From: Sordariomycetes sp. S80-01Y
Taxonomy: Eukaryota > Ascomycota > Sordariomycetes
Direction: 5' to 3'
DNA: 64,000 bases
NCBI GenBank assembly: GCA_037042185.1
Contig: JAXQJY010000025.1
Coordinates: 124,001-188,000, forward strand
The notes under the pieces are model-generated. The model searched no databases, was not told the origin of the DNA, and saw only the letters and a list, made by a program, of their open reading frames with translations. Position numbers and translations under genes: made by a program. Shown one piece after another: positions 30,108 to 50,346 of the stretch. Every line of letters starts with the position of its first letter. Position 1 is the first letter of the stretch.

Positions 30108-30989
30108 TTACGAAGGCACTTCCTCGCCATGCTGCTTCGACGTGGTTCCGCCAGTGCCCTCTTCAGGCTCAATGACCTGGGCAACAATCTCTTCGGCCGT
30201 GGGTAAAGACTGACCACCTTCGTCCGCACTAGCCGTCTGGCACTGACAGCGACAGAACTTCCCGCCTGGTTCTTGATCACCACGGTCTTCCCCTTCGACC
30301 TCGTCCTTCACTTGGCTGAACATCTCCTCAATCTTCCTCACCTCTTCGCGCGCATCCAACCCACTGTCCGCTAAGCATAACTCCCTTTCCCGCTGCTCCA
30401 TGTATTCACGTACCCACTTCCACCTCGATTCTTCGTGACGCAGCTTCTCAGGCTGTCCACTGCCGCGGACGTAGGCGACGATGCTGGCAGTGATCGTCGC
30501 AACGGCACCCAAGCCAGTGATGTTGCTGTAAGATGCTCGCGAAGCTGCCGCGGCCGTCACCGCTGCTCCCATGACAATCTGCAAACCGAGGCAAATGTTT
30601 GACAAAGCAGAAACAACGCGAGCCGTCTTCTTCGTCCATCGTTCGTTGCGTACGACGCGGGTGTATATCCCGATATTGTTGGCTGTGCGGACAGAGTGGC
30701 CGGAGCGCGTGACGACAGGGGCAGTGTCAATGCCTGTGAGGGTCTGGAAGATGAGGAGCTTGTCTTCTGCAGGCACTAGGGTGTCTGGCTCGTTTGTGAA
30801 GAGCCTGAGAGGCGGGGCCGGACGTCGTGGCGGTGTTGAATCCTGTGTTCCCCCGTGAGAAGCGGCGGGCCCGTCGCCTCGTTCTTCATCTGGCTGTGGA
30901 GTTTCCGGAGAGTTTATCGCTCTCGAGAAGATCACCCGAGCACCTTTTAGAGCCTTCCCTACGAAGCCAACCATGATTATGGATTTCAA
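30108..30989 (-). CDS. Fungal SLATT-domain two-helix membrane protein
   Basis: A single exon of 293 residues from the ATG at 30989 (a second in-frame ATG at 30974 is possible). After a Pro-rich lead, residues about 105-205 form a SLATT domain. A basic pre-helix R-V-V-R-N-E-R-W-T-K-K leads to a first membrane helix at about 127-150 (C-L-G-L-Q-I-V-M-G-A-A-V) and a short hairpin with Y-S-N-I-T-G-L-G-A. The second helix is at about 158-175, followed by the amphipathic R-W-K-W-V-R-E-Y-M-E-Q-R-E stretch. The tail is acidic with a C-R-C-Q-C cluster. SLATT proteins are thought to be pore-forming effectors in nucleotide-linked or NLR-type conflict systems; fungi carry their own branch. No nucleotide cyclase or NLR is adjacent, so its partner is unknown. 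Confidence 0.85.
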   Translation of the reverse strand: MKSIIMVGFVGKALKGARVIFSRAINSPETPQPDEERGDGPAASHGGTQDSTPPRRPAPPLRLFTNEPDTLVPAEDKLLIFQTLTGIDTAPVVTRSGHSVRTANNIGIYTRVVRNERWTKKTARVVSALSNICLGLQIVMGAAVTAAAASRASYSNITGLGAVATITASIVAYVRGSGQPEKLRHEESRWKWVREYMEQRERELCLADSGLDAREEVRKIEEMFSQVKDEVEGEDRGDQEPGGKFCRCQCQTASADEGGQSLPTAEEIVAQVIEPEEGTGGTTSKQHGEEVPS

Positions 30990-32906: not shown

Positions 32907-33497
32907 CTACCGAACAAACTGCTGAACAAAATCCGGAGGGAATCCAACCGACTCGTAGTGCTCTTTTGCCTTGCTCAATTTGCTGAAAACATCCTCCACG
33001 CCAATTGGGTTGCCATCGGGGTCCACGTAGATGTAAGCTCCAGTGACGTGGAACATGGTCACCATCTCTGTGACCTCGCTCGGTACCTCGAGCGTGTGAA
33101 TATCACCAGGGGGCTCGAACGCGTAGCTGCCTTCTTCAGCCCACCACGGGTGCTCCAGGTAATGCCAGCGGCCCCTCAGGACGGTAGCATGCACGCAGCC
33201 TGCGTGTCTGTGACGAGAAAGGATGCCCGACCGGCGGACTCGGAGAAGGTTGACGAAGAAGCCGCCGGACACGGATAGCAGGAGAGGGCGGAACCACACG
33301 CCGGGGGCCTGGGGTACCCATAGGCGTTCGTCGCAGTCGTCTATGTTGAGAGTGTTGGGAACCACGAGGTCATCAGGAACAGATGGGAGAATCGGTCCTC
33401 TGTAGGCGACGGCGGCTTGGTCTGGTCTCAACTCCTGCTGCTTCTGGTTGCCTGTGGCCTCCGAAGAGGCGGGTTGTGCAGATGTGTCGATAGCCAT
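32907..33497 (-). CDS. Cupin dioxygenase, 2,4'-dihydroxyacetophenone-dioxygenase-like
   Basis: A single exon of 196 residues. The region R-L-W-V-P-Q-A-P-G-V-W-F-R-P-L-L (59-73) followed by G-G-F-F-V-N-L-L-R-V-R-R-S-G is typical of the ChrR/2,4'-dihydroxyacetophenone dioxygenase branch of cupins. Metal ligands are visible as H96 and H98 (S-R-H-R-H-A-G) and H134 (P-P-G-D-I-H-T-L). Relatives split a C-C bond next to a keto group on an aromatic ring using non-haem iron and oxygen; whether this protein does so is inference. It lies at the left edge of the cluster and its promoter carries two copies of the shared element plus a TATA box. Confidence 0.8.
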   Translation of the reverse strand: MAIDTSAQPASSEATGNQKQQELRPDQAAVAYRGPILPSVPDDLVVPNTLNIDDCDERLWVPQAPGVWFRPLLLSVSGGFFVNLLRVRRSGILSRHRHAGCVHATVLRGRWHYLEHPWWAEEGSYAFEPPGDIHTLEVPSEVTEMVTMFHVTGAYIYVDPDGNPIGVEDVFSKLSKAKEHYESVGFPPDFVQQFVR

Positions 33498-33594
33498 GAT
33501 TGTAGTGTGGAATTAAGAACAGCGTTGGAGCTATATGGATCTTGGGTATTGTGTAAGAACACTTCGGTTTCCACTGACCGATGTTACAAGAGAG

Positions 33595-33603
33595 CTTATA
33601 TAC
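33595..33603 (-). promoter_or_regulatory. TATA box of the cupin gene
   Basis: Read leftward it is GTATATAAG, 98 bp from the ATG at 33497. Confidence 0.55.
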
Positions 33604-33720
33604 TTCCAACAAGGGCGAGTTCTATCCTTCATCTGACCAAAGAGTAACACCTTTTGATGTGAACACCAGATCGGACTATCAAGGGTTCCCCATCAAGAGT
33701 TGGAGTAGTAACATCCACTG

Positions 33721-33736
33721 CGGCGCCAAGGGCGGT
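33721..33736 (+). promoter_or_regulatory. Cluster element copy 1
   Basis: CGGCGCCAAGGGCGGT, 224 bp upstream of the cupin ATG. It differs from the consensus CGGCGCYAAYGGCGGC at two positions. Confidence 0.5.
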
Positions 33737-33756
33737 GTAGCGGCAAATGTCGGCGC

Positions 33757-33772
33757 CAGCGCTAACGGCGTT
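33757..33772 (+). promoter_or_regulatory. Cluster element copy 2
   Basis: CAGCGCTAACGGCGTT, 36 bp from copy 1, giving the cupin promoter a close pair. It has the central GCGCTAACGGCG intact. Confidence 0.5.
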
Positions 33773-33871
33773 TGATGGATCCTGCCACGGGGACAGAAGC
33801 ACCCCCCGCCTCTAAGATATTGGGTTACCAGTACTTTGGGTTCTGTTGAGTCTCGGCTGGGTCTCTTTATA

Positions 33872-35824
33872 TCATGTTAACGCAATCTTCCAGCCTCGGA
33901 GCTGGGCGATGTCTAGCCAGTCCACCTTGGCGAGATCGGTCCTCCTTGTCCCCGCAGATCGCAACCTCCACACTTCATCCAGAACCCTCAAGCACGCCTC
34001 CACATTGCGGAATTTGCGCCACTGGTTCATTGACAGCAGCCGTTGTCGGATGATTTGAATGTCAGCATCGTCCTCAGCCTCCCCACCAGCCATGAACAGC
34101 GGGAAGAGCATAGTGCACTCGGCAAGACTACCAAGGGGCATTGATCTGGCCGCATTGCAGATGGCCCGCACCGAGGTTAGCATTTTTGGTTGAATCGCTT
34201 CGGCGGAATAGACTGCGTAGTGCCTCCTGAGAACCCAGTACAGATAGATCAAAGCAGCATGTCTATACGCCTCACCAAGCATGGCCAGCGCAGACTCGCT
34301 CTCGGGTGAGGGGTTCGTCCACTCCTGCAGATACAATTCGATCGTCTGTGCTCGTTGGGCGAAGTGAGAATGCGCGCCGGAGCTTGGCCATTCCTGGCCC
34401 CCCAAGATATCTTCCATCAAAGGGTACCCTGAGTCTGTGTACGTATGTAATCTGCTCGCAATAGTCTCAGACGCATCATCGTTTGCGAAGTGATTCTGTC
34501 GCTGAGCTTTTGTGGCAGTGGAGGCTTTGAGATCGGCCCCGAGATGGCTAATCTCTCCAACGAGGTATAAGACTCTTCCCGCAAACCCGAAATATGTATC
34601 CGCCGTGTCGTCAACATCGTCATCAGTAGAAAGCCAGTAGAAACCGCTGATGGATGGGCGACAGTCCATCGACACGCTCATAAGGATGTCATGGTATGCG
34701 AAATTGCGCAGAAGCCATTTCCCCTCGAATGAACTTCTGAGCGATAGGACTGTGTTTGCGTTGGCGAGGTTCGTTGTATCATCAATACCGGCATGACTAT
34801 CCCGCGATGACCGGAGCATCGAAGACGCTGCTGACAGGTGGTGAATCCAACTGTCAGTGGCTTCAGAAATAGAGTCCATAGAGCACATGATCATGGTAAC
34901 AGCCAGAAATGCCTCCTTCGAGAGCATTTTGCTGTCCACTGATCTCTTGAGTTCCTGCAGGGCTAACCCTCGATGCCGCAGAGATACCACCTGGAACTGC
35001 TCGTCTCTGAGTGCTAGATGGGCCGAAGAGAACGCAGCCAGCGTATAGATGATTACCGGACACTCGAAAGCCATCGGTAGGAGGACTAGTAGGTTGTCAG
35101 CGCAAGATCTAGGACAAGGGTCCAGCTTGGTAGGCAGGGGTCAGATGCCAAAAGAACAAATCAGATCAAGTGACGTACCGGATAGGAAACAGTTGTTCTC
35201 CACATTGGTGGTTAGCATGAAGGCAAAGCTTGCAGTATAGTAGCGCAGCATGGCCCGCCGGCTAGACGATAGCCCTGACGCACTCGGTGGACCGTTAAGC
35301 TCAGATTGAGGGGGCAGGAAAGACTTGGCAAGTCTCGAAAGATCAAAAAGCTCTGTTCCTTCGCGCATTACCCCTTTACGACTTTGCTCTTGTTGTTGCC
35401 GCTCTCGGTCAGGGTCGAAACCAGCCAAAGGCGCTGTCCGATCGTGGACCGGCGCCGACTCGGCAACGTCCTCCGAGTCGACAGAGTTCTTCAGCAGTCG
35501 TGGGCCCTCCCATTTGCAAACAAGATTTAGGCGAGAACAGTGGCCACAGACGGGGTACGTCTGAGAACATTTCTTCTTCCTATTTCGACGGTCAGCACCG
35601 GCTGCATGAGTGACGAGCCCACAGACGGTACGCACACATCCCAGGGGCTAGGGCCAGGGTCAGACTTACCTTCGCCGGCATGTAAGACAACCTGTGCGTT
35701 GCCTAGTGTAACCCCTTCGCCCCGGGGCGCAGTCGACTTCCTGATGGTACCCTGCTTCAACAATGCAGTCCATAACAGAAGTGCTCTGGGAAGATGAGTG
35801 ATGAATCATAGACAGGTCCTGCAT
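33872..35824 (-). CDS. Zn2Cys6 transcription factor with fungal-specific regulatory domain
   Basis: Three exons, read leftward: 35824..35670, 35579..35179 and 35085..33872, encoding 589 residues. The binuclear zinc cluster spans the first intron: C-L-T-C-R-R-R before and after the splice, then K-K-K-C, six residues, C-G-H-C, six residues, C, which is the full six-cysteine pattern. The second intron joins N-C-F-L-S to V-L-L-P-M-A-F in frame. The long C-terminal part, with F-S-S-A-H-L-A-L-R and S-D-S-W/A-T-D-S-W-I-H-H-L-S-like helices, resembles the Fungal_trans_2 regulatory domain. Alternative starts are ATGs at 35809 and 35773. The gene lies inside the catabolic cluster and has one shared element just upstream of its own TATA box, so it is the natural candidate for the cluster activator and may regulate itself (inference). 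Confidence 0.9.
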
Positions 35825-35864
35825 AATGGAGATTGTCAGGCCCCATGGATAGACGGCTTTCTGG

Positions 35865-35873
35865 TTATATAAA
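35865..35873 (-). promoter_or_regulatory. TATA box of the Zn2Cys6 regulator gene
   Basis: TTATATAAA on the plus strand, TTTATATAA read leftward, 41 bp from the first ATG at 35824 and 92 bp from the ATG at 35773. The short gap to 35824 is a reason to consider the downstream ATGs as true starts. Confidence 0.5.
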
Positions 35874-35889
35874 GAGCGCTATCGGCGGC
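35874..35889 (+). promoter_or_regulatory. Cluster element copy 3, next to the regulator TATA
   Basis: GAGCGCTATCGGCGGC abuts the TATA box on its upstream side. It matches the consensus at 13 of 16 positions. The position suggests autoregulation. Confidence 0.45.
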
Positions 35890-36382
35890 GTGGGTCCAGA
35901 CGCGCGCTGAGAAGCTCCACACCTACATTTATGGAGAAGCGTTTGTTTTAGTGCGGGCGACTTGCGAGCTGCGATAAGCCCCGACCTGGACTTCGCAGGC
36001 TCCTGTTACTCACAAGCGTTTGGTGGCGGCCTACGAAGGGCATCGCTGGCAGGGGTTCCCCAGCCGATATCCCGTGGCTTGCAGACGTACTGAACTCTCG
36101 ATGGACCCTGACGGGTTCATAGCAATTGAGCTAACAAGCTGGACGCAGATGTCGATATGACATGTACAGAATCTCTATGAAGTCTACCTAATCCTGTTCA
36201 ACATGATGCGGGGGGCAGAGTCTGTGTCGCGAGTAAGGGATGTCCGCTTTTGGTCTCACAGAGATGGTGTGCTCGTACGTACTTGTGCCCGCCCGTTTTC
36301 TAGTGTTCCATTTTGGAGTCGGACCCCGACGGCACGCTATTAACGGAGCGGGTTATAACCAAATTCAAAATGCTCCAACTAA

Positions 36383-37961
36383 TTACAATCTCGACGTTGA
36401 CAGCGTCTGGCTTTCGCTGACGGTAGTGGCCGACTCCGGATGGGCCGCCGAAAACTGCGCAGCAACCGTCTCAATCGCAGCACGAAGTATACACACCATA
36501 CGTCTCAACTGTGCCTCGTTGACGATGTACGGCGGTGAGATGATGACGTGCTCAATGTGTACTGAGCCTGTATCGCCCAGGTTGCCCAGCAGATTCAGTC
36601 CCGTATCAAGACACGTATCGACAACCCTGTTGCAGAACTTGAAGTCTCTGGGCGCGAAGGGCACGCGGTTTTGGGGATCTTGCATGAACTCGACGGCCCA
36701 GAATAGACCACGACCGCGAATATCGCCAACGAAGGGGAGATGGCCTAACTCGGAGTTCAGGAGGTTGCCGAGAAATGAACCCATCATCTTGACGTTATCC
36801 AGTAGCCCTTCACGGTGGATAATCTTTTGGACCTCAAGGGCTCCAGCACAGGCCGCGGGGTGAGCCTGTAAAGTGATCAGGTGTCAGCTGGATTCAGTCT
36901 TGTCTGGACCGCAGGACACGGCTTGTGCCCAAGTGCCTAGAAGGGAGTAACTGACCTGGAATGTGTGTCCGTGAGCAAGACCTCCAGTCCCTGCCCTCAA
37001 TGCCTCAAAGATCTTTTCGTGCAATAGTACTCCCGATAGAGGCACAAAGCCTCCACCGAGGGCTTTGCCAATTGTCTGAAGGTCGGGGCCCGAGATACCC
37101 TCCTGCTCCCATGCATGCATTGTGCCAGTCTTTCCCATGCCGCACATGATCTGACACGAAATGTCAGTACTGTGGCATCGCTTGTGACAGAAAAGATGCC
37201 AGACTCACCTCATCTAGGATGAGCAGAATATCGTATCGATCACATAGCTGCCTCACCGCTGTGAAATAGCCTGGCACAGCCGTGGCACATCCCAAAGTAG
37301 TCCCACTGACAGTCTCTGCAATGAAGGACGACACATTCTCAGGGCCTAGCTCGAGGATTTGCGCCTCAAGCTGATCGATCAGTCGCGAGACGTAGCCCGA
37401 GTCCGTCTCTCCGGGCTCCTTCAATCGATAGGCTATGCAGGGATCTACGAACCGCACGTTGTCTGATAGCCAGTCCCGGTACATGGCTCTGCGAGAGTCG
37501 TGACCGGAGACGCACAACGCCCCAATGGTGTTTCCATGGTAGCTTTGTCGCCTTGCAATAACGTAGCGCTTCTGTGGCAGTCCTCTCTCGTGCCAGTACT
37601 GCGTGGCCAACTTTATGGCGGCGTCGGTGGCCTCGCTACCCGAATTGACGAAAATTGCCTTGGACAAACCGCCGGGTCTATCTTTGAGCAGCATGGTGGC
37701 GAGCTCCTCAGTCACATCGCAGGTGAACCGTGCTCCCGAGTACAAGTAGGCGAGCTGGCTAAGCTGCTTGGCGACCGCTTGTCCAACCTCTTCACGCCCA
37801 TGGCCGAGGCAGGACACAGCCGGTCCTGCAGAGGCGTCGAGCACTTCGCGACCATCGCGGAGGAACAGAGATACCCCGGACGCTGTCTCAACCTCCAAAG
37901 GTCGAGCCGCGAAGCTGCGGTGAAGAAGGTTGGACTTGACAACAAAAGGGTCGGCAGTCAT
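36383..37961 (-). CDS. Class III (omega-type) PLP aminotransferase
   Basis: Three exons, read leftward: 37961..37209, 37150..36956 and 36865..36383, all joined in phase 0, encode 476 residues. Class III marks are G-P-A-V-S-C-L-G-H near the start, F-V-N-S-G-S-E-A-T-D-A-A (PLP phosphate site), S-Y-H-G-N-T-I-G-A (ring stacking), L-L-I-L-D-E (D250) followed after the splice by I-M-C-G-M-G-K-T-G. The PLP-binding lysine is K280 in T-I-G-K-A-L-G-G-G, followed by H-G-H-T-F-Q/A-H-P across the second intron. Such enzymes move an amino group between amines or amino acids and keto acids. In this cluster it could handle an amine released by the amidase or nitrilase. It carries one upstream element and a TATA box. 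Confidence 0.92.
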
Positions 37962-38128
37962 GGCTGCAGTTGGCCTCTGGGCTCTTGTGGCGTCTCAGAA
38001 CGTTGGCTGGGACAGGGCTCGGGTGCAGGGAAACGGCGGCTAACAGAGCTTGGGCGAGTTGAAATATGGAACCAAGTCAGGCTACGGTGTCGAGTAAGAA
38101 AACTTCTTGAATTACGCACCTATAGGAT

Positions 38129-38137
38129 CTATATATG
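38129..38137 (-). promoter_or_regulatory. TATA-like box of the aminotransferase gene
   Basis: CTATATATG, 168 bp from the ATG at 37961, between the gene and its cluster element. Confidence 0.45.
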
Positions 38138-38236
38138 TATCTGCGGTAGCCAATTTACAATGCAATCCCGTGCGGAGCAGACCAATGTGAGCCGCCAGCG
38201 CCTTGGTGGAGGTGGTTCCACATGAGCCTAGCCGCT

Positions 38237-38252
38237 CGGCGCTAATGGCGGG
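38237..38252 (+). promoter_or_regulatory. Cluster element copy 4
   Basis: CGGCGCTAATGGCGGG, 15 of 16 matches to the consensus, 276 bp upstream of the aminotransferase ATG. Confidence 0.6.
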
Positions 38253-38612
38253 CAGTATAAGTTACATGTACGAATCGATGACGGCCAATTTCGTGCCGAA
38301 TGCAATATTAACGTGGTGGGCGCTGCTCCGTGTGTGTCTCAACTAGACGTGGACTTGAGTGCCGTAGACCGGCCCCGTGTCGTGTTCCATATCTCCATTG
38401 CTCTGCGTTTCTGGTGGAGATGCTATTTATCATCGGCAAATGTTACAGTAGACTGAGCGTGCCACACAGTCAAGTCAGCAAGTCGTCTTTGAATGCCGCG
38501 AACAGATTTGAGTCAATTTGACTCAATAACATTATGTTGGACTCTATCACTGTTCTTGAGATTACTGTGTTGATATAGTAACTTTCTTTTGGCATCGCTA
38601 TATTAGATGTCC

Positions 38613-40789
38613 TCATTCGATACCGTGCGCTTCGTTAGCTCTCAGAGCTTCGTGGCAAGCTTTCGTTACGCCCAGTAGATACTCTTCGCCCAGTCGCCGC
38701 CCTACAAGCTGAACACCAACTGGACAACCCAAAAGAGACTCGGAGCCACCTGATCTTATCAGCCGCTTATCCTCAAACGCAGAATTTACACTCTTACCAT
38801 TCTTTTCGTAGTCAGAACCATGCTTCTCCACAATCCCTTGGTGTTGCACGTCGTCATCGGATACGCGTGTGACTGGCATGGTTGTTGCACAGTAGTCGAG
38901 CATGTTCCATAGACTGGTGTAGTTGTCGTATCCGAAGTTATACCTACTCAAGCTGTTAGCTCTAGAATTTTGGGGTCGTATCAGTGGAAAAGTACTTGGA
39001 GCATGCGGGCGATACTGTGCATGGCATGAGTAGGGCATCCATTTCTCGACCTGTTGTAGACCTCGACTTGGTGGCGCCCCAAGCATGAAGTAATCTTCTG
39101 GAATATGCCGTCCGCTTCGCTTGCGCTTGCCACAGGTCCAAGACTGTAGCATCACTCAAGAGTCCCGACGGCCCATCAGAGGAACTGCTGAGGTATTTTT
39201 CCAGCAATTCGTAGCCCCGTGGCCAGGGCTCATTTGTCTTGGAAAGCTGGTCCTTCACCATGGCTGCTGCTGCAGAGCGGTACATTGTCGTCTTGAATGG
39301 CTCAAGATACTGCGGATCGTCTCTGTCGCTCGTCAATTTTATTGCTTCAAGAGTCGCATGTACGGCCGAAAGCGCTTGAGGTTGCCGCAAGGAGGTGCTT
39401 ACATGGCGAATTCAATGATGCAATGACCGGCAGCTTCTAACGCTGCCTTCGTCTCCAACAAAGCGCGTGTAACCGAAGGATGTGGTTTCACGTGGCCATC
39501 GTCCAGCAGAAGCCCTAAGCCGGTCAATGCCATTAGCAGAAGGACCTGGGGTTGAAAAAGGGCGCGTGATGCCTACCAATACATAGCCGATCCGGAATAT
39601 CAGGCTGCTTCCAGGGCAAAGGGAGACAGTCTGGATCAGACCCTAGCCAGGGACTTGCGGTCGCTACTGCGCGGCACCAGAGCTCGAGCCCGGAAAGGGA
39701 CGCGGACATAGGGCCGACGACGTTGCGTACTGTCTCTTGACCTGGAAGCCCGTCCTGAATACCAAAGGTTGGAAAGCGCCCAAAAGACGGCTTGAGAGAA
39801 TATAAGCCGCAGAAAGAGGCCGGAATACCTGTTGATTGTGTATCAATAAATCTGCAGTCCTGATCAGCGTGACGGTAGTCTAACTCACGGACTGAACCAC
39901 CAAGGTCTGTGCCTACACCTAAAGGCGATCCCCTCAAGGCTAACAAAGCCCCCTCGCCACCGGAAGAACCCCCACTTGAGAGGTTGAGGTTGTAGGGATT
40001 TGATGTGTAGCCATATATGGCATTGTAGGTCTATTTGGCACGTTAGCGGCCGGAGAACGGATTCAATTGATGTCAACTTCACCTCGCCAGACATCATAGC
40101 AACAGGAGCATTTGTCTTGCAGAACAAAATTGCACCACTTGCTCTCATAATCTTGGTGATTTCAGACTCCTCTTCTTGTGAGGCCGGCTGCCCAGAGAAT
40201 GCAGTGTAACCGATCGTTGCATCAACCCCTTCTATTTGGAAACAGTCCTTGAGAGAAACAGGCAAACCATGAAGTGGCCCAGCTGGTATGCCTGAAGCGG
40301 CGTACTCAGAGTCCAGCGCTTCTGCAGTTGAAAGAGCTCTGTCGAAGAATATTTCGCTAAGGCAATTGACCTGTTCTTTCTGTTAAGCCATGTCCATTGT
40401 TGCGTATTGCTAGTGATGGGGAGGAGTACCAATTGTTGCGCGATAGCTGCTCGTTTGCAAAACGCGAGAGTAACCTAAAGAGTCATATTCAATATTCTGG
40501 CAGACATTAAAAGTCTGGGTAGCCATTAACTAACCTCGTAAGAGCTGTATTTTCGGCTGAGCATATGTCTAACGAGAACCCTGGCTGAGGTCTCCGTGAT
40601 AGTCAGCTCCCTGCTTGACAAAACACCACACTCTGTAGGCACATCCATAACGTTCATTCTCCCACCATGTGAATGACTTGGTAGCAAGCGCCAGTCCTTC
40701 GGCATAGCTGCCTCGCGAGCGGCGCGCTTCGTCTTGCAAATTTCCTCCCAAGAAGGAGTTGCCACCTCTACATAAGCACTGGGAGACAT
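38613..40789 (-). CDS. Amidase-signature hydrolase (acetamidase/FAAH-like)
   Basis: Eight exons, read leftward: 40789..40535, 40474..40430, 40370..40083, 40030..39889, 39828..39577, 39514..39403, 39322..38996 and 38943..38613. They encode 583 residues; every junction keeps frame. Exon 2 is only 45 bp. The Ser-cisSer-Lys triad is complete: K141 (V-S-L-K-D-C), S218 (G-G-S-S-G-G-E) and S242 (T-D-L-G-G-S-V-R), almost the same spacing as in fatty acid amide hydrolase. The N-terminal helix region begins MSPSAYVEVATPSWEE. The enzyme should cleave an amide to an acid plus ammonia or amine. Fungal relatives include acetamidases. It lies between the aminotransferase and the MFS carrier, all reading leftward, and has a diverged element copy 210 bp upstream. 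Confidence 0.9.
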
Positions 40790-41493
40790 GGTTACGGACA
40801 GTAGAGCGAATTCGAAAATGGGAGTATTGAGAAAGTATTTCAGTAGGTACTCTTTTGTGGTATGGGAGAAGGATACTCTCCGTCTATGAAGCGGTTCTTG
40901 TACGCGCCTGAGGGTATTTGGCGGTTGTCTCGTGCGGGTCTCGCGCGTCCTGGCATCAGCTTGGCTCAAGCGCTTGCTTATCGACCACCCCTGGTGGCTG
41001 GCGCAAAGGGCGGCAGGCTATCTCCACGAGTGACAAGGGTCTGTGGCAGGACGTTCGGTCTAATGAGCCCTTGGTCTGGACTTTCCCTCACATCAATCCC
41101 AAAATATGCTTGGACCAGAGACTTTCTGGGCTGCTAGTTCTGCATGGTACTAGGAGAGGCGTTCGGTTGGCTTTACTCTGTTGATTAGATATTTAATTGA
41201 AGATGAAAAAGACATATTCTCCGGCTGTGCTCTTCGACTATGACAATGCTCGAAGATCTAGAGTCCCTACGGATTCCCAACTTGCGTGAAATACCCGGTA
41301 TGAAACGTATCACATCTACAATTGCCTGTAAATTGTGCACACAAGAGGACCAGACGCATTGATACTAGATGCAAATTACAATCATTCGTCGCTTCCTACT
41401 TCATCCAGTACATCTGCCATACGGCGTCGCACATAGGGACACAGCGCTGCCGCCATAACGCAAACGCGAGCTCAAATCCCCAGTCTCGTCTGC
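40790..41493. other. Amidase promoter and MFS-carrier 3' end
   Basis: Contains one weaker cluster element at 40999. No TATA box is obvious. Nothing else is recognised. Confidence 0.5.
40999..41014 (+). promoter_or_regulatory. Cluster element copy 5 (diverged)
   Basis: TGGCGCAAAGGGCGGC, 13 of 16 matches, 210 bp upstream of the amidase ATG. It most resembles copy 1 of the cupin promoter. Confidence 0.4.
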
Positions 41494-43498
41494 TCAGAAC
41501 ATTTGCTTGTTCCTCATATCGATAGGGAGGAAGCATAGAGCAACGCATGAGAGCCAAATTCCACCAGCACCTAGCCACAAGACGCCCACTGTACCATTGT
41601 CGATAAAGCGTTGTCCAGCGAAAGGCGCAACAATGCCTGCAATACGTCCGAGACACGACAGCATGCCACTTGCACTAGCTCGGTACGTGGTGTCGAACAT
41701 CTCCGGTGCAGACGCATAAAGAATGGCATTGAAATACTGGGAAATGTTAGTTCTCAAATTCACAGCATAGAAGCGTATGGCGCTTAACGTACTGTTTGCA
41801 TGATGTATTCGAGCGCGTTGAGGCCCACGTAACCGGCCGTGTTCTTGACTTGGGTGTACATGGCCATAGAAAGACCCTGAAGAGCAGCTGAAATGACCAA
41901 TGACCATTTTCGGCCGATCAGTGGTAGCTGTACGGAGAAGAGAGCCAAGACAGCTCCCAGGACGCCAGGTAGGTATATGTAAATGTACTGGCGATAGGTT
42001 TCGCTGACGCTGTTTGCACCGCTGTCCACATTGTTGTTGAGAAGAACAATAGGTAGGAAATAGCCTGCGAGGGTGAAAGACCAGTAGTTGCCCTGGCTGT
42101 GGTCAGTCAAGTATTTCATGCAAATTCGGGGATCCTTATGATTGCTCACCATATAGCCCAAGGCTAGGAGCACAAATATGAAGGTTTGTCGTTTCTCGAT
42201 GAAGAGTCCGCGGAGGAAGCTGATACTTTGGATCGCATTGACGAACACGCCCTTAGCACCCGGACTTTTAGGTTCGTCCACATCAGAGCCAGAGCCTGTG
42301 CCATGATCATGCTCCACTGCCTTGAAGTCTTCCAAAGTAAGTGTAGGTGGCGACGCTCCGTTGAATTTAGCAATCTTTTGGAGCACATTGATGGCATCTT
42401 GGTCTCGACCTTTGCTGACAAGGAATTTGGGCGACTCGTGGAACCGAAAGAAGAAGTAACGAGAGAAGAATACCGTCAGCGTCATGGCTCCGATGACGAT
42501 GACCATGTATCTCCAGCCCATGTTGGATGGGGTTGTGCAGCATGCCTCGTCGCCACTGACAGTCTTGCAAGACGGCAGGTGTACATCGCATCGATACCTA
42601 GCGGCGGTGCCGTAAGCGATTGCTGAAGCTACAACAACACCGATCGGCTGCCACATGCCCATCAGAGAGACAAGGTGACGTTTGCTCTGTGGAAGGAATT
42701 CGAGCGCAATAGTCGCATCGATGGGAATGTTCCCGCCTAGACCGATGCACGCGAGGAAGTAGATTCCGCAAAGTGCCTCGTAATTCTTGCCGCTGGCTGC
42801 CTTGACCGGGATTAGCAAGGTTCTAAAGTGCCCTTAGGACGCTCCAGGGCTTACCAAAAGCATTCCAAAGGTCGAGGTGATAAGGCATGAAATATTGAAT
42901 GCCCATTTTCTCCCAATGATGTCGGTAATGATGCCGAAAGAGAAGGCTCCAGTACTATGGCTTGATTAGCACGCAGGGCAGTCTGAAAACACGGGAGTGA
43001 CGAACGCGAGGCCGGCACTGGCACAAGTCGAGAGTAAGCCCTGCCTGCCAGGGGGCACGTCCATTTCTTGGCTTCACGACAGTCAGCTCAAACTTCTTGA
43101 GGTATTCAACCGCTGGAGGGAAAGTGCCCATGTACTCACTAGACGGCTGTGGCCATGAGACTGACACCCTGTGCCCAGTTCAAGTCCAGGAAATATCCAA
43201 AGCCACATAGCACCCAGATGCACCATTGATATTTTCCCATACCGATTCGATCTATCTCCCTGCACGGGCACGGCAGCCGTCAATATACATCGACAGGTGG
43301 TATGGCTCAGTAGGGCAGATCTTACGCATTGACCAACGCCGCCTTGCGTTCAAAAAGATTCAACTCCCCTTCTGAAGAATGACTTTGCAAAACCTCTGGC
43401 TTGACCTCACCATCTTGGTTCTCAGTGCTGGACTTTTTGATGTCATGAGGATAGACCGGTGCAGCTGCACCAATATCTTGGGCGGAAGGCGTCGCCAT
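41494..43498 (-). CDS. MFS transporter (SV2/organic-acid-type symporter)
   Basis: Seven exons, read leftward: 43498..43326, 43259..43140, 43071..43006, 42954..42855, 42800..42150, 42092..41793 and 41736..41494, giving 550 residues. Joining them restores a continuous MFS start: G-F-G-Y-F-L-D-L-N-W-A-Q in helix 1, then V-Y-Q-E-M, G-L-L-S-T-C-A-S-A-G-L-A and the loop D-I-I-G-R-K-W. Later marks are L-G-G-N-I-P-I-D in helix 4, R-F-H-E-S-P-K-F-L after helix 6 and A-P-F-A-G-Q in helix 11. I read it as a 12-helix proton symporter of the SV2/aromatic-acid or phosphate-like group; the substrate is unknown. The third intron has an unusual GTTCGT donor, the only choice I found that keeps frame. Two strong cluster elements lie upstream, so it is probably the cluster's uptake carrier. 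Confidence 0.88.
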
Positions 43499-43578
43499 GG
43501 CGAATGTTGATTAATGAGATACCTTAATACTGTATCAATAATGCTAGAGACATTTCATAAACAGTCGACGGGGAACGC

Positions 43579-43588
43579 TTATTTAAAG
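43579..43588 (-). promoter_or_regulatory. TATA-like box of the MFS-carrier gene
   Basis: TTATTTAAAG on the plus strand (CTTTAAATAA read leftward), 81 bp from the ATG at 43498. Confidence 0.4.
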
Positions 43589-43804
43589 AGTGTCTTCAAC
43601 ACATGGCTGGTGACTTCACCGATGTTCATGATACGTTGGGCGTTATCTGTGGTATAGCACAGTGGATACCCAAGACTGTTTCCCCATGCTCCCCGCGACT
43701 CTAGATGTAAAATAAGGAGACGGCAGGTCGGCGGGCTTGACAGCCTGGGATGTTCGATCTCACTGCCCTCATTGAGGTAGCCACAGACTTCGGTTTGGCT
43801 CCAC

Positions 43805-43820
43805 GCCGCCATTGGCGCCG
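43805..43820 (-). promoter_or_regulatory. Cluster element copy 6
   Basis: Read leftward it is CGGCGCCAATGGCGGC, a full 16-of-16 match to the consensus, 307 bp upstream of the MFS-carrier ATG. Confidence 0.6.
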
Positions 43821-43884
43821 CCTACCTCCCTGTAGCATCCCATGCACCTTGTCCAACCCCCCTGTCTCTGTAGTGCAGCTCCAC

Positions 43885-43900
43885 GCCGCTATTAGCGCCG
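43885..43900 (-). promoter_or_regulatory. Cluster element copy 7
   Basis: Read leftward it is CGGCGCTAATAGCGGC, 15 of 16 matches. It shares the flank CTCCACGCC with copy 6, 80 bp away, as if the pair arose by local duplication. Confidence 0.6.
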
Positions 43901-44316
43901 TCCGCATGTTCGTAGGGTCCTCGAAGAGGGGACTTACAGGCTGAGGCCCCTGTCCCTTCCTATCATCCTTTGCTCATGGAGCGTGCTTGACCGGAAAGCA
44001 GGGCCACCCATCCTCGACGTGCATGAGTGAAGCGCGGCTTTGTCCTCCTTTCCACCTCCGTCTAAGCCGCTGGGGTCGGATCATGGGGGCTCCAAAGGCC
44101 GATACTGCTCAGAATAAAAACTCAAAGCTTCTCATGCAGAACATTATCAGGATGCAGTGGGTTCAATGGCATGGGGGATGTGGGAACTGGTTACCGGCAG
44201 CGGTGAGCATCAGCGCGGACCTTCGAGTTACAACGGACTTGGGCGTTTTCATATCTCAAAAATGTAATTAGTTCGAGGACTGATTGAGAGTCTTCTATCT
44301 TGGCTGCTTCTTGATA

Positions 44317-45531
44317 CTACTTGGATTCCTCAACCATTTGTCCCAACTTGATCTGGGTCAACAAGGACAGCTCATCGTACACAGTCCACTCATCCACGAC
44401 CTTGCCCTTCTTATAGTGGTAATGAGACATCCCCATAACCTGGAGACGTTGCCCAGTGGGCTTGCCGAGCTCCGTCAATCCTCCGTAGCCCAGGTGGTGT
44501 CCCTCGAGGATCCAACGAACGGCAACCTTCACACCTCCTTCTTCGCAGGGATTGGAACAGATGTGCTGAGCCATGTAGGCGGCATCAGGAACTGAGCCAA
44601 GCAGCGCCAGATGCTGGTGCAGAACGGCAGCTGGTCCATACAGCTCCGCCATCTTCGGACCATGATACTGCGCATTAGACGCGTACCTCTTCTCAATTTG
44701 ACCGAACATGCGACGGTTCCACATCTCGTGGAGCCACGAGAGGGTTTCCGCCTCAAGCTCGTTGTTGGCGATCGAGGTATCAACTTCTTCCGTAGGCAAA
44801 GCCTGACCCACGATGCGTCGATTCTCGCCAATGTCTATAGCCTCCAGGCCTTTGTCGAACAGTGCCTTGGCAGCGTCCCGAGCGAAGACGTGAGGATCAA
44901 GACCGAGCTGCTTGACTATGGCCATGTTGTCGGCGACCACCCACTCGCGGTATATCTTATTCTTGTAGATCATACAGTCGGCGATGGTGCGGGAAACAAA
45001 CGTCTTGCCGGTAGGTGGGCCGAAGTGGCCGTGCTGGGTATGTCTGCCCGCGCCAGTGACAAGGTGAGAAGTGTAGAATCCCTTGCGGTCGTCTCCATTC
45101 CACAACACATGCGTGGCCATGCCACGGCGCTCGGGAAGAGAGACAAGACGTTGAATAGTGTCTCGCACGATCGTTTCGCGATCGTAGATGGTTCCCATTG
45201 TGCCATACAAGACACAGTTGTGCGTATAATGAGTGTAGATCAGACCAATGTCGCGCTCATCCCAGATCCTATGGGTGCAACGAACGATGTAGTCTACAAT
45301 GTCGGTGTAGATGTCATCGAATCCGTCCATGGAATGTGCGCGGCTTCTGCCCGTTGGAGCTAAATCTCCATAGTCGTGTCTTTCAACCTGCAATACATTG
45401 CTGGCGGTGTCGCTGTGGTCGTTGCTTGCATTTTGCGAATTTGCTGAGTTTCCGTTGATCTGAGGGACAGCCTTGAGGGGCTGGTCTCTGCTTTCAGCTG
45501 GGAAGCTATCTTCGTGTGCCATTGGAGCCAT
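44317..45531 (-). CDS. Tandem SnoaL-like (NTF2-fold, ester-cyclase-type) protein
   Basis: A single exon of 404 residues from the ATG at 45531 (MAPMAHEDSF); an in-frame ATG at 45585 adds 18 residues. After a Ser/Asn-rich lead there are two NTF2-fold units. The first, about residues 70-215, contains Y-I-V-R-C-T-H-R-I-W-D-E-R, V-L-Y-G-T-M-G-T-I-Y-D-R-E-T and T-S-H-L-V-T-G-A-G. The second, about 260-400, contains W-L-H-E-M-W-N-R-R-M-F, Y-H-G-P-K-M-A-E-L-Y-G and V-R-W-I-L-E-G-H-H-L-G-Y-G-G. SnoaL relatives catalyse aldol-type ring closure in polyketide pathways or act as hydrolases and isomerases. Bacterial 'ester cyclase' proteins of this layout sit in catabolic operons. The function here is unknown. 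It has its own TATA box and two elements 0.96-1.16 kb upstream. Confidence 0.8.
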   Translation of the reverse strand: MAPMAHEDSFPAESRDQPLKAVPQINGNSANSQNASNDHSDTASNVLQVERHDYGDLAPTGRSRAHSMDGFDDIYTDIVDYIVRCTHRIWDERDIGLIYTHYTHNCVLYGTMGTIYDRETIVRDTIQRLVSLPERRGMATHVLWNGDDRKGFYTSHLVTGAGRHTQHGHFGPPTGKTFVSRTIADCMIYKNKIYREWVVADNMAIVKQLGLDPHVFARDAAKALFDKGLEAIDIGENRRIVGQALPTEEVDTSIANNELEAETLSWLHEMWNRRMFGQIEKRYASNAQYHGPKMAELYGPAAVLHQHLALLGSVPDAAYMAQHICSNPCEEGGVKVAVRWILEGHHLGYGGLTELGKPTGQRLQVMGMSHYHYKKGKVVDEWTVYDELSLLTQIKLGQMVEESK

Positions 45532-45659
45532 GATGTCTAGATTGAAAACCGAGTAGGACAAGGGGGGATTACTCAAACGCAGCAATCACTGTTGGACTGT
45601 TGGATAATTTGAATGAGTTGAAACTGTTCACACCTGGATTTCGGAGTTCGGAGTCTGTG

Positions 45660-45668
45660 TTATATAAG
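45660..45668 (-). promoter_or_regulatory. TATA box of the SnoaL-like gene
   Basis: TTATATAAG on the plus strand, CTTATATAA read leftward, 129 bp from the ATG at 45531. Confidence 0.55.
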
Positions 45669-46489
45669 TATTATCTCGAAGACCCTGGCAAGGGGTAGCC
45701 CATCCCCGGCGCGTTCCCCATCGACAATCCCCAGACGAGAAACTTCTAGCATTGTAAGCTATGACACGAAACTTATGTGCCACACCCGGACAGGCACCGC
45801 TAGTTTCGATTCTAACTGTCAAAGGAAAGGTAGGACCAGGTTGGGAAGACAATGGTGGGGCCTCGTCGGCGGTGTGGCGCCCCTGGGTCGATATCGGAGG
45901 ACTTGAGATACGTCGCGTTAAGACATGCAAGGCGCGAACCGCGGCCTGACGACTTGTTGGCAATCTAAAGCTGAGCCTGGAAACCACGAACAGAAAGGGT
46001 GTTCATCCTCCGGAGATCAGTCGCAACTATCCCCGCCTAAATAAATAGGGGCTGAGAAAGGCTGATCTGACTTGGGATTCAGGAAGGTAAGCTGGGTCTT
46101 TAGAATCCCAGAACGTGGATCTGGTCTAGTATTCATCATGCGTAGTCAATAGGACCTGCGATATATTCCACGAAGTAGGCGGAAAGGAGCGTTAACAATT
46201 CTGATTAGAGCGCGGCCTTGATATCAGCTGAAGTATTCTAAATACATGTTCACATCAAAAGCTGGAACCTTCCGAGCCGCGTGGTCTTGCTACTTATCAG
46301 TCTAGAAGTATTTGTGTATCGACAAAGTCTCTCTTTATCAGGCAGACATTGGTGGAAGCCCGGTGGTCTCAAGGATGTCCTATCTTCGGAGAACCTTAGC
46401 GTGGAGCTCAGTTGGGCCGTCCAAGATACCAGAACAAGCAACGCAAACCCGATCGGGCCATACCGCAAGGCAGGTTGTACATTTCAGCT

Positions 46490-46505
46490 CGGCGCTATTG
46501 GCGGC
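46490..46505 (+). promoter_or_regulatory. Cluster element copy 8
   Basis: CGGCGCTATTGGCGGC, 15 of 16 matches, 959 bp upstream of the SnoaL-like ATG. Confidence 0.55.
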
Positions 46506-46686
46506 GAGAACCTTGGCTGTATCCTATCTACCGTCTTCCAGAAGGGGTATATTGGAAGAGCTCCGCGTTCGCTTTATGCGAGAGGGAACAGGGGTCAATC
46601 TACCGATACCCAAGCGGACTTATCAGGGTGTGCCAAGGCCCTAGCCCGTCGTTATCTGTCAGGGACACACCAGGGAGGTGAGAACG

Positions 46687-46702
46687 CGCGCCATTAGCGC
46701 CG
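46687..46702 (-). promoter_or_regulatory. Cluster element copy 9
   Basis: Read leftward it is CGGCGCTAATGGCGCG, 15 of 16 matches, with the 14-base core identical to that of copy 4. Confidence 0.55.
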
Positions 46703-47044
46703 CCCCACTCCGAAGGCATCATGAACCATGCAACTCTGGGGGAGGTGGAGTCTCGTCAAGCTTCCCCAGGTTCGATGGTTCCAGAACCAAACCTCAGCCG
46801 ATGGAACTAGAAATCGTGTCTGGGGCTTGTGTCCGGGGTCTCGCTACAGAGGGCTGGGGAACCGCGACTTGTTCCGCTTGCCTGGAAAGAAGGTAACGGG
46901 CTTGGACATCTCTGGAGCCAGTGGCAACAGGGCTGGTTTGTCGAAAGTGAACGAATTATACGTGCTATTCATAGAGACTCGCAAACAGAACGAAGCAAGA
47001 CTTTGTGAGAAATGGTTTGAGAATCGTTGCCATGCGAGACTACC

Positions 47045-48613
47045 CTAGTTACTTGGCTTAACTGTACATCCGTCCTCAAAGGTATCCCTCTCGATGCCTT
47101 CGATTCCTGTAGCGCTCGGCAGTGGAGGCACCTCAAAGTGTTTTCGGCCATCGAAGACCCAATGCACCAAAGCTATGAAGAAAAGGATGCTTAGAGCTAC
47201 TATGGCATAGTTCATGTTAGTTGGCGTAACATGAGCTTCCGGTGGGAATAGGAAGAGCACTGTGGTGATCATCGTCCACAATATTCCAACAATGTTTACA
47301 ACCCAGCCCAGGGCATTGGGCAATTTGAAGGGACGGGATTCCGGCAGCATACGCCTCCCACGGAGGCAGTTGATGAAGGGGGGGATGGCGTAGGTGATCC
47401 CGATGGCCACCACGCTGGCAGACACAATGGCGTTGAACGCGCTAGAAGACCCAAGGAAGATCAATCCGAAGATTATAATCCATGATGAGGTCCAAATCAG
47501 TGCGTTTAGAGGAACCTGGAGCGTAGGATGCACCTTGGCGAAGAAGGTGCTAAAGGGAAGGCCGCCGTCACGAGCAAAGGCGTAGCTCATGCGACTACTC
47601 GTTGTCATCAGAGCTGTCGAGGTAAATACCATACACATGACGGGAAACATGAGCAGGCAAACGGCGCCAACCTTGTTGTTCGTGGCTTGGTGTAAGATCG
47701 TGAGCAGCGGGCCGGCAGCGCTGCTGTTCACCTCCGAGATGTTGGTGACAGTAAATAGAAGGCAAGAGACCAAAACAAATCCAGTAAAAACTCCGATTCC
47801 GATTGCCGTAACCATGACTTTCGGTCCCTCCACCTTCGGATTGGGTATTTCCTCAATCATATGGATTGTGGCATCGAACCCGGTCAGAGCAAAAGCGCCT
47901 TGCAGGAGCCCGATAAGCCAAGCCAAACCGTCGGGCCATCCAACGTCGTTGATGAGGCTGCCATAGACGAATTCGCCGCTCTGGAAGTTCGGCGACGCCG
48001 CAGCCAGGACGGTGATGCAGATGACAACGAAGCCGGTGACCGACCACAAGAAGGCGACCTTTCCAAAGATTGGGAGGAGTTTGACTGTGAAGGCATTGAT
48101 GAGGAATGCGACAAGTGTAAAAGCGATGTATATCAAGAACTGGTGCCATGGCTGCGCTTCAAAGGACGGCATCTCGAGGGCGATGATGTTGAGCAGAAGG
48201 GTGCTACCGAGAAGTCCTCCTGTCGCGGCCATGGTGCACCATCCTCCCACGTTCAGCCACCCAGTAGCGAAGCTCAACCCGCGACTGACCGACGGCCAGC
48301 TCACGGTAGCAGCCCAACGGTACTGGCCACCAGCTGTTGGATATGCTGACAGAAACTCGCCGAGGGAAGCGGCCAGACACAGATTGCAGACTCCTCCGGT
48401 CAACAAGCCCCAGACCACGGCACTGGGGCCGCCAGAGGGCAGAGCAAGGTTGAGCGACGTAGACAGGGCTGTCCAACTGTTCAGGCCGGCGAAAGCGAGT
48501 CCGATCATGGCGGGTGTGGAAAAGTTGCGTTGGAGCTCTTGCTTGACGCCGAGCTCTTCAAGACCATGAGCATCTCTGGCAGCGCGCGACTCTGCATCGT
48601 CGGTTTTGTGCAT
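47045..48613 (-). CDS. Amino-acid/GABA/choline permease (APC superfamily)
   Basis: An intronless gene of 522 residues with about 12 hydrophobic segments. The fungal GABA/choline-permease branch is recognised from F-S-T-P-A-M-I-G-L-A-F near residue 31, S-G-G-P-S-A-V-V-W-G-L near 60, Y-P-T-A-G-G-Q-Y-R-W-A near 91-101, and the cytoplasmic run F-A-L-T-G-F-D-A-T-I-H-M-I-E-E-I. Then comes S-R-M-S-Y-A-F-A-R-D-G-G-L-P-F-S in the second half. These carriers import amino acids, GABA or quaternary amines across the plasma membrane with protons. In this cluster it would bring in a nitrogen-bearing substrate, complementing the MFS carrier. A TATA-like AATAAATAG and one cluster element lie upstream, the latter shared with the divergent nitrilase gene. 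Confidence 0.92.
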   Translation of the reverse strand: MHKTDDAESRAARDAHGLEELGVKQELQRNFSTPAMIGLAFAGLNSWTALSTSLNLALPSGGPSAVVWGLLTGGVCNLCLAASLGEFLSAYPTAGGQYRWAATVSWPSVSRGLSFATGWLNVGGWCTMAATGGLLGSTLLLNIIALEMPSFEAQPWHQFLIYIAFTLVAFLINAFTVKLLPIFGKVAFLWSVTGFVVICITVLAAASPNFQSGEFVYGSLINDVGWPDGLAWLIGLLQGAFALTGFDATIHMIEEIPNPKVEGPKVMVTAIGIGVFTGFVLVSCLLFTVTNISEVNSSAAGPLLTILHQATNNKVGAVCLLMFPVMCMVFTSTALMTTSSRMSYAFARDGGLPFSTFFAKVHPTLQVPLNALIWTSSWIIIFGLIFLGSSSAFNAIVSASVVAIGITYAIPPFINCLRGRRMLPESRPFKLPNALGWVVNIVGILWTMITTVLFLFPPEAHVTPTNMNYAIVALSILFFIALVHWVFDGRKHFEVPPLPSATGIEGIERDTFEDGCTVKPSN

Positions 48614-48683
48614 GGTTGAGGTCGTGGCCAGTGCCTCGAAGGATATCCAGAAGCGATGCGATACCCGAGCCTTTTCGAGAAGG

Positions 48684-48692
48684 AATAAATAG
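48684..48692 (-). promoter_or_regulatory. TATA-like box of the permease gene
   Basis: AATAAATAG on the plus strand (CTATTTATT read leftward), 71 bp from the ATG at 48613. Confidence 0.35.
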
Positions 48693-49015
48693 AAAGGAAG
48701 GGGAGAGGCGACAAGAGCTGGGACGATCCTGCAGAGCTAGACCAACAGATGAAAGAGACACTTGCAGGTTATAGTGTTCGAAGATATAAGTTGCAGCAAA
48801 GAAGGTTCAGTATTGTCTGGAAAAGAAACGAAGTCTACTCCGTACTCCGTACTCCGCAAGAACCATTTGTCTCCAAGTCATGCCACCTGGGAATCACCGA
48901 TAGTGTGACGAAGCGTTGGAGTTCCGACTCCCGGGCACCACCCTCGATATCGTCTTAGTCGAGTTCCCCCCGACGATCTTCTTACGTATCTCCAATTCCC
49001 TGATCCAGTTAGCGT

Positions 49016-49031
49016 CGGCGCCAACGGCGTG
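49016..49031 (+). promoter_or_regulatory. Cluster element copy 10
   Basis: CGGCGCCAACGGCGTG, matching the 14-base core fully. It is 403 bp from the permease ATG and 356 bp from the nitrilase ATG, so it could serve both. Confidence 0.55.
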
Positions 49032-49386
49032 GTGCCCTTCACGCGGAGAGGGGGGAGGCCTGCGCCGAATTCCGTCTTATCTCGCCTCCATATGTGTGCG
49101 CCCTCCATACTTCCGAAAGTCGGAGATTATGAATATTGTTAGATTCTTATCAGGGGTCAATGCGTCCCTCCTCATCATTCCCACTTGATTCAAAGTCTCC
49201 GCTCAATGGAGCGTGGGGTTGTGAAATTTTGCGGAGATCCATCGCGATGTGACGCATTTGGAGACGTGTGACACTAGAAGTCTGTGAGACTCAAAACCAA
49301 AAGCCATCATCCTTTTGCTTATCCATCAATCCTTACGGAAGATACCCCAATATCTACTCTTGCCAGCGGCGTCGCCATTGGCTATC

Positions 49387-50346
49387 ATGGCCCCGATCAT
49401 CAAAGTCGCGTTGATACAACTGCGTCCAGATGTGCGTCCACCTCCTCACACTCACTCAATCTGCTTGATGATGTAGCTTAGCCGACTTTCCCGCTGACAA
49501 AGAGCGATCAAGGTTGTTGATGTGGCCGGCAATTTCAACAGAGCTGAGAGCTTCATCCGCTCAGCAGCTTCTCAAGGCTGTCACCTCGCCGTGCTGCCCG
49601 AGTATCATTTGACCTCGTGGGCGCCTGAACATGCCGATTTCCAATCTGCGATCCGCGATTCTGTTCCCTACCTGCAACGATACCAATCGTTGGCGAAGGA
49701 ATTGGGTATCAGCATAGTTCCGGGAACTATCTGCGAGCCCTTTGAAAGCCAAGGCGAAGATGCTGAAGCCAGCTTTGGCGTGCGCAACATGGCTTACTTC
49801 ATCGCCGCTGGGACAGGGGTCATCTGCGGATCATACCAGAAGAAGAATCTCTGGCACACTGAGAGGCCTCATTTGACGTCTTCCGGACACTCGGCCCATG
49901 TAGCCTTCGACACGCCCCTGCCCAGCCAGAGCACAAAGCCTTTGCGCGCAGGCATGCTCGTCTGCTGGGATCTGGCCTTTCCTGAGGCGTTTCGGGAGCT
50001 CGTTCGGGACGGCGCCGAGATGATCATCGTTCCTTCGTTCTGGCACATGGCGGATCTCGATGAAGCAGGGCTTCGCGTGAATCCCAGATCCGAAGAGGTA
50101 TTCTTGACCACAACCCCGGTCGCAAGGGCTTATGAGAATACCGCTGCGATAGTCTTTGTCAACGCCGGTGGTTTGAGTCAGGTGGCTATGCCCATTCAGG
50201 GCGGGCTCGGGGTCATGCCCATCGAAAAGGAGGAAATGTCGGTGGTGGACATAGACTTGGATGTGCTCCGCATCGCGGAGGAGAACTACAAGGTCAGGGA
50301 GGACCTGTCGCGGGATGGGTTTCATTACTCTAAGCAATCAAGGTAA
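49387..50346 (+). CDS. Nitrilase-family carbon-nitrogen hydrolase
   Basis: Two exons (49387..49431, 49513..50346) encode 292 residues. The intron (GTGCGT donor, CAAG acceptor) joins I-Q-L-R-P-D to V-V-D-V-A-G-N-F-N; other acceptors meet stops. The Glu-Lys-Cys triad is present: E45 (L-P-E-Y-H), K125 (Y-Q-K-K-N-L-W) and C166 (V-C-W-D-L-A-F-P-E). The family acts on non-peptide C-N bonds, either nitriles or amides. This short branch with R-A-Y-E-N-T-A-A near the end is more often amidase-like, so the substrate is open. It is the only rightward gene of the cluster and closes it on the right. It shares a promoter region with the permease. Confidence 0.88.

Follow-up and report, generated by a model that had tools for sequence, protein, structure and literature searches.

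A 16-bp element repeated in the spacers of an eight-gene cluster of Sordariomycetes sp. S80-01Y, a probable operator of a local zinc cluster regulon

The window, that is, the whole 64-kb stretch of DNA of the fungus Sordariomycetes sp. S80-01Y analyzed here, corresponds to positions 124001-188000 of contig C8 in an assembly of 30.87 Mb in 16 contigs. Its split genes, zinc cluster proteins and fungal-specific regulatory domain agree with a fungal source. The window carried a cluster of eight genes (32907-50346), and a 16-bp element with the consensus CGGCGCYAAYGGCGGC was found ten times in the spacers between these genes. This element is regarded here as a probable operator of a local regulon. 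Gene families were assigned by Pfam profile searches of the open frames scanned in 32907-50346, with expectation values given as E, and the start codons were the first in-frame ATG, chosen by hand. The seven genes from cupin to permease were located on the minus strand, and the nitrilase-like gene on the plus strand.

32907..33497, minus strand, Cupin_7 gene (Pfam, E 1.6e-16), start codon at 33497
33872..35824, minus strand, Zn2Cys6 regulator gene (Zn_clus and Fungal_trans_2)
36383..37961, minus strand, class III aminotransferase gene (Pfam Aminotran_3, E 3.8e-39 and 5.8e-14), with at least the frames 37961-37164 and 36883-36383
38613..40789, minus strand, amidase-signature gene of several exons (Pfam Amidase, E 3.7e-30 and 1.9e-23)
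41494..43498, minus strand, MFS transporter gene (Pfam Sugar_tr, E 6.6e-10 on the frame 41784-42833)
44317..45531, minus strand, two-domain SnoaL-like gene, one intron-free frame of 404 codons (Pfam SnoaL, E 1.9e-23, C-terminal half)
47045..48613, minus strand, amino acid permease gene (Pfam AA_permease_2, E 8.1e-55)
49387..50346, plus strand, nitrilase-superfamily hydrolase gene (Pfam CN_hydrolase, E 2e-23 on 49498-50346), its ATG assigned by eye ahead of a short intron

The ten copies of the element differed from the consensus at no more than three positions. The copy at 43805 matched it completely, those at 38237, 43885 and 46490 had one mismatch, those at 33721, 46687 and 49016 had two, and those at 33757, 35874 and 40999 had three. 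All ten were situated in spacers, which make up 5391 of the 15889 bp of the cluster span, seven being read on the plus strand and three on the minus. One or two sites were present in every one of the seven promoter regions of the cluster, and the distance to a start codon was 50-403 bp for eight of the ten, which included copies in either orientation. The sites are listed below with their scores in a 16-position matrix built from the ten copies.

33721..33736, plus strand, site 1, CGGCGCCAAGGGCGGT, 21.6 bits, 224 bp upstream of the cupin start
33757..33772, plus strand, site 2, CAGCGCTAACGGCGTT, 20.2 bits, 260 bp upstream of the cupin start
35874..35889, plus strand, site 3, GAGCGCTATCGGCGGC, 18.1 bits, 50 bp upstream of the first candidate ATG of the regulator
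38237..38252, plus strand, site 4, CGGCGCTAATGGCGGG, 24.5 bits, 276 bp upstream of the aminotransferase gene
40999..41014, plus strand, site 5, TGGCGCAAAGGGCGGC, 18.9 bits, 210 bp upstream of the amidase gene, weakest on leave-one-out
43805..43820, minus strand, site 6, CGGCGCCAATGGCGGC, 24.0 bits, 307 bp upstream of the transporter gene
43885..43900, minus strand, site 7, CGGCGCTAATAGCGGC, 22.6 bits, 387 bp upstream of the transporter gene
46490..46505, plus strand, site 8, CGGCGCTATTGGCGGC, 23.3 bits, 959 bp upstream of the SnoaL-like gene
46687..46702, minus strand, site 9, CGGCGCTAATGGCGCG, 22.0 bits, 1156 bp upstream of the SnoaL-like gene
49016..49031, plus strand, site 10, CGGCGCCAACGGCGTG, 21.0 bits, divergent promoter, 403 bp from the permease start and 356 bp from the nitrilase-like start

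A search of the window with the consensus at up to three mismatches gave 14 matches against 2.0 expected, and the maximum in 100 shuffled sequences was 6. The 14 comprised the ten copies, two opposite-strand readings of sites (43804 and 46491) and two stray three-mismatch matches, one at 27017 and the other at 45930, inside the spacer ahead of the SnoaL-like gene. When the window was scored with the matrix, the ten copies ranked 1 to 10 (18.06-24.52 bits), while the top independent score elsewhere was 13.81 bits at 25337. As nothing independent exceeded this value in the rest of the window, the sites end at the edges of the cluster. In the leave-one-out analysis the copies scored 13.18-23.52 bits, and nine of the ten exceeded the best non-site position of the window under the same matrix, the copy at 35874 by a small margin (13.67 against 12.93). 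An unguided count of 12-mers from the cluster spacers also placed the same word on top. This word, GCGCCAATGGCG, had 13 strand hits at up to two mismatches in the approximately 5.4 kb of spacers, compared with four in the 46.3 kb outside the cluster.

The whole genome was scanned with International Union of Pure and Applied Chemistry (IUPAC) patterns instead of the full matrix, and strand hits were counted. The totals are complete for each pattern, and positions are those of the first 100 matches listed, among which were all the cluster matches. The pattern GCGCHAWBRGCG, which fits all ten sites, gave 242 hits, 11 of them in the cluster (one site being hit on both strands), while its reversed control gave 109. 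With GCGCYAWYRGCG, fitting eight of the ten sites, 103 hits were obtained, including nine in the cluster (reversed control, 44), and the strict pattern CRGCGCYAWYRGCGB, fitting seven, gave 26 hits with seven in the cluster (control, 4). The 16-letter consensus at up to two mismatches hit the genome 293 times and the cluster seven times (control, 179). Outside the cluster, in 30.86 Mb, 231, 94 and 19 hits were thus left for GCGCHAWBRGCG, GCGCYAWYRGCG and CRGCGCYAWYRGCGB, and the density in the cluster span was 96-, 193- and 743-fold higher, respectively, than in the rest of the genome. The number of hits expected in the cluster span was 0.11 for GCGCHAWBRGCG and 0.05 for GCGCYAWYRGCG, and 11 and 9 were observed. 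Genome-wide, the core patterns had roughly double the hits of their reversed controls, perhaps because of codon use in genes.

The hits outside the cluster were classified as coding or spacer by the length of the stop-free frame in any of the six frames, with codon scores alongside. The strict pattern had 13 of its 19 outside hits in stop-free frames of 200 residues or longer, and the other six fell elsewhere. As 247 of 400 random places in the window also fell in such frames, no preference for spacers was shown outside the cluster. The element is local and is not a general promoter word. These results bore out a preliminary description of this DNA, which had reported ten copies at these positions, between genes and on either strand, with no comparable copy in the spacers of the other 46 kb; a similar density elsewhere in the genome was not found, and none of the ten cluster sites was coding. 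The strongest copies outside the cluster are given by contig and position.

C9:476745, 22.6 bits, ahead of a frame that starts like a secreted protein (by eye)
C13:137132, 21.6 bits, no clear gene within the 3 kb examined
C4:626022, 20.6 bits, apparent spacer, with a transcription-factor-like frame (by eye) about 1.6 kb away
C11:383197, 18.5 bits, kinase-like frame nearby (by eye)
C10:3251659, 18.2 bits, about 1.2 kb from the contig end

Inspection by eye of 3-8 kb at each strong outside copy, without a Pfam scan, revealed no neighbor genes like those of the cluster. The matrix scan of 187,220 positions fetched around hits (59 of 91 loci, some overlapping) found three places with at least 18 bits, namely C4:626022, C11:383197 and C10:3251659, each of which had been chosen beforehand for its hit, making the sample non-random.

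The letters that were invariant in all ten copies were G3, C4, G5 and C6, A8, and G12, C13 and G14 (GCGC-N-A-N3-GCG). Both the inverted arms CGC-N5-GCG, centered about position 9, and a direct repeat of GCG at 9 bp fit ten of the ten copies equally well, the two readings sharing bases. CGG triplets are the usual half-sites of Zn2Cys6 proteins, and the preliminary description had placed two such triplets, nine bases apart, in the core. This description is corrected here, each triplet being intact in seven copies. CGG-N9-CGG as the sole core was set aside, since the pair was intact in five of the ten and the invariant letters lie elsewhere. It is still plausible that the site is read as a CGG-N9-CGG dimer site by the Zn2Cys6 protein of the cluster. 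CCAAT was likewise set aside as the element, as it was present inside two of the ten copies.

The product of the regulator gene is a candidate for the binding protein. Its first exon extended from the ATG at 35824 to 35670 and the second started at 35579, the first intron dividing the zinc cluster. The spliced zinc cluster, CLTCRRRKKKCSQTYPVCGHCSRLNLVC, had the spacing C-X2-C-X6-C-X6-C-X2-C-X6-C, which is canonical for the Zn2Cys6 family (C-X2-C-X6-C-X5-12-C-X2-C-X6-8-C). On the second-exon frame alone, the match to Zn_clus had an E of 2.4e-4, just over the Pfam cut-off (21.6 against 21). A Fungal_trans_2 domain was detected behind the zinc cluster (33872-35140, E 1.3e-55, 189 bits). Pfam detected no second regulator gene among the cluster frames scanned. 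A genome search with the N-terminal 185 residues of the regulator gave at least 46 matches, two of them its own exons and 44 of them others. No close paralog of these 185 residues was found in the genome, and the other matches were 30-57% identical, mostly over the zinc cluster.

The regulator gene lies inside the cluster, every promoter, that of the regulator included, has a site, and the density elsewhere is far lower; these features fit an autoregulated pathway-specific activator. The preliminary description had read the element as the operator of a local regulon, a reading supported by the local density and by the location of all ten sites in spacers. We consider, with a probability of about 0.75, that the element is such an operator and is bound by the Zn2Cys6/Fungal_trans_2 protein of the cluster (33872-35824). 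This protein would bind in all seven promoter regions, probably as a dimer. Given an inducer derived from the pathway, it would turn on the cupin, aminotransferase, amidase, MFS transporter, SnoaL-like, permease and nitrilase-like genes, acting as an activator rather than a repressor, and it would also act on its own gene.

Several observations weigh against this assignment. The copy ahead of the amidase gene (40999) did not exceed the best non-site position on leave-one-out (13.18 against 13.47), and the sites at the amidase gene and at the regulator's own promoter scored weakest of the ten. The two sites of the SnoaL-like gene were farther from their start codon than all the others. The canonical pair of CGG triplets is broken in half of the copies. 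A few strong copies (C9:476745, C4:626022 and C13:137132) were found in apparent spacers elsewhere. In addition, Poisson values near 1e-18 for the enrichment are post hoc, the patterns having been drawn from the same ten sites.

The element might be a genuine local operator that is read by a protein encoded elsewhere, such as another Zn2Cys6 protein or a partner, with the cluster regulator binding something else. The at least 44 further zinc cluster matches in the genome offer candidates, the invariant GCGC-N-A-N3-GCG differs from two CGG triplets, and the site in the regulator's own promoter had the lowest full-matrix score. The element is, however, concentrated in the cluster as a cluster-embedded regulator predicts, whereas sites in other parts of the genome would be expected for a protein that also serves other functions, and Pfam gave no other regulator among the scanned cluster frames; we judge a reader from outside the cluster to be unlikely. 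A general promoter element or the site of a global regulator, dense here by accident, would agree with the twofold excess of the core patterns over their reversed controls (103 against 44 and 242 against 109). This account is very improbable in view of the counts expected and observed in the cluster span and of the strict outside hits, which had no spacer preference; CCAAT, the only global-regulator word noticed in the copies, was confined to the two mentioned above.

Sequence duplication was also considered, in which the copies would belong to a dispersed repeat or to local duplications and not be separately kept binding sites. The pair at 43805 and 43885 indeed has a common extra GTGGAG on the 3' flank. 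The ten 14-bp flanks, in contrast, could not be aligned beyond about 19 positions as judged by eye and column information, and the sites occur in both orientations, leaving very little room for this origin. The least probable explanation was chance combined with selection by a reader seeking repeats. The consensus was picked from the same sequence, three copies have three mismatches, and 40999 falls short on leave-one-out. Chance is nevertheless refuted for the set, since none of the 100 shuffles reached 14 matches, the unguided 12-mer count ranked the same word first, and nine of the ten left-out copies outranked all the non-site positions of the window; single weak copies may still be due to chance.

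As for the function of the cluster, the combination of an amidase, a nitrilase-superfamily hydrolase, a class III aminotransferase and a permease suggests that an amide- or nitrile-type nitrogen compound is taken up and broken down. The nearest NCBIfam model of the aminotransferase was PRK07483, under the cut-off of that model, and the best solved structures matching it were named generically as class III enzymes, omega-transaminases being among the 60 matches listed. The last piece of the amidase gene (38613-39155) was under the Pfam cut-off (20.8 against 27 bits), and the transporter frame 41494-42102 had no match in Pfam. Adjoining the cluster, at 30108-30992, a SLATT_fungal protein (SMODS and SLOG-associating 2TM effector domain, E 5.2e-32) was encoded. 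No published account of this cluster was recognised in the open-access literature, as judged by titles and the openings of abstracts.

The spacer upstream of the SnoaL-like gene (45532-47044) was the longest of the seven, at 1513 bp compared with 818 bp for the next. Two open frames in it (45628-46002 on the minus strand and 46242-46697 on the plus strand) had no Pfam match, and this spacer may once have held a gene or may hold an overlooked one.

HGATAR is the site of nitrogen GATA factors. It occurred 21 times in the seven cluster spacers (19 on the minus and two on the plus strand), at least once in each, and 110 times in the whole window, or 1.7 per kb with genes included. Its presence in all the cluster spacers would be in keeping with the additional action of a nitrogen GATA factor here.

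The SnoaL-like protein was 60-72% identical over about 360-400 residues to alphaproteobacterial proteins (Devosia, Rhodobacteraceae and others) at 12 of 12 confirmed loci, in a search that reaches close relatives only. Its N-terminal half matched the ester cyclase 8ysb (E 1.5e-4), and no second copy of the gene was found in this genome. In six of the bacterial genomes, the best match per genome was 30-50% identical for the first part of the aminotransferase and 23-39% for the nitrilase-like protein. When the other cluster proteins were compared with the 12 bacterial loci only, weak amidase matches and nothing else were detected. The high identity of the SnoaL-like protein against the low identity of the other cluster proteins makes lateral transfer of this gene between bacteria and the fungus, in either direction, a fair guess from this comparison with bacterial proteins. 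Among the scanned neighbors, two of the bacterial loci (L082 and L087) both encoded histidinol dehydrogenase-like proteins and FGGY kinases, accompanied in L082 by ATP-binding cassette (ABC) transport parts and a LacI regulator, and in L087 by an amidase and a cupin. The two proteins scanned at a third locus (L080) were a LacI regulator and a cupin. A broader scenario, in which the operator is not of the CGG type (inverted CGC-N5-GCG arms with an invariant A) and the fungal Zn2Cys6 regulator, by reading it, controls a catabolic cluster including a captured alphaproteobacterial SnoaL-like gene with operators about 1 kb upstream, is tentative and in our view doubtful as a whole.

Mal63 of Saccharomyces is a Zn2Cys6 protein, and the genes of the AmdR regulon are scattered in the genome of Aspergillus nidulans, unlike the cluster described here. 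The Mal63 sites are 5'-MGSN9MGS-3', as cited in the excerpted text of PMC6097016. As in that excerpt, the regulator gene lies within the loci it is proposed to control and the triplets are 9 bp apart, here at positions 1-3 and 13-15. Mal63 governs maltose genes, and in our element these triplets were conserved in seven of ten copies each while the inner GCG arms were conserved in all ten. KojR, which recognizes CGRCTWAGYCG in kojic acid biosynthesis of Aspergillus section Flavi according to the excerpt of PMC9961346, is similarly an in-cluster Zn2Cys6 pathway regulator with a short palindromic site, present on both strands no more than about 0.3 kb from the start codons. Its site, however, is 11 bp long with a different sequence, and the pathway is biosynthetic. 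The AmdR/IntA regulon of A. nidulans (amdS, gatA, gabA, lamA and lamB), as outlined in part of PMC8016842, resembles the cluster in its kit of genes under one positive regulator, with genes for acetamide, omega-amino acids (the transaminase GatA and the permease GabA) and lactams; no site of AmdR is given in that part. Pho7 of fission yeast, for which the excerpt of PMC5559640 gives the site TCG(G/C)(A/T)xxTTxAA in phosphate-responsive genes, is a Zn2Cys6 protein with a site other than paired CGG triplets, so departures from CGG pairs exist among these proteins.

The arrangement, in which a fungal catabolic cluster has its own pathway-specific regulon, is of a known and common kind. The sequence of the site may be new, as no published match was found by an exact-letter search of the open-access literature, which covered neither most subscription papers nor a motif database. 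The letters of the core brought up two unrelated papers, and the spacing formulas brought up the Mal63 citation and one bacterial paper. With the element, an uncharacterized fungal cluster becomes a testable regulon, for which there are a proposed regulator, seven promoters as targets, a defined site and a background count across the genome, and the sites mark the edges of the cluster without expression data. If bound as proposed, the element would add to the known sites of pathway-specific zinc cluster regulators one in which the fixed part is the GCG arms and not the CGG triplets.

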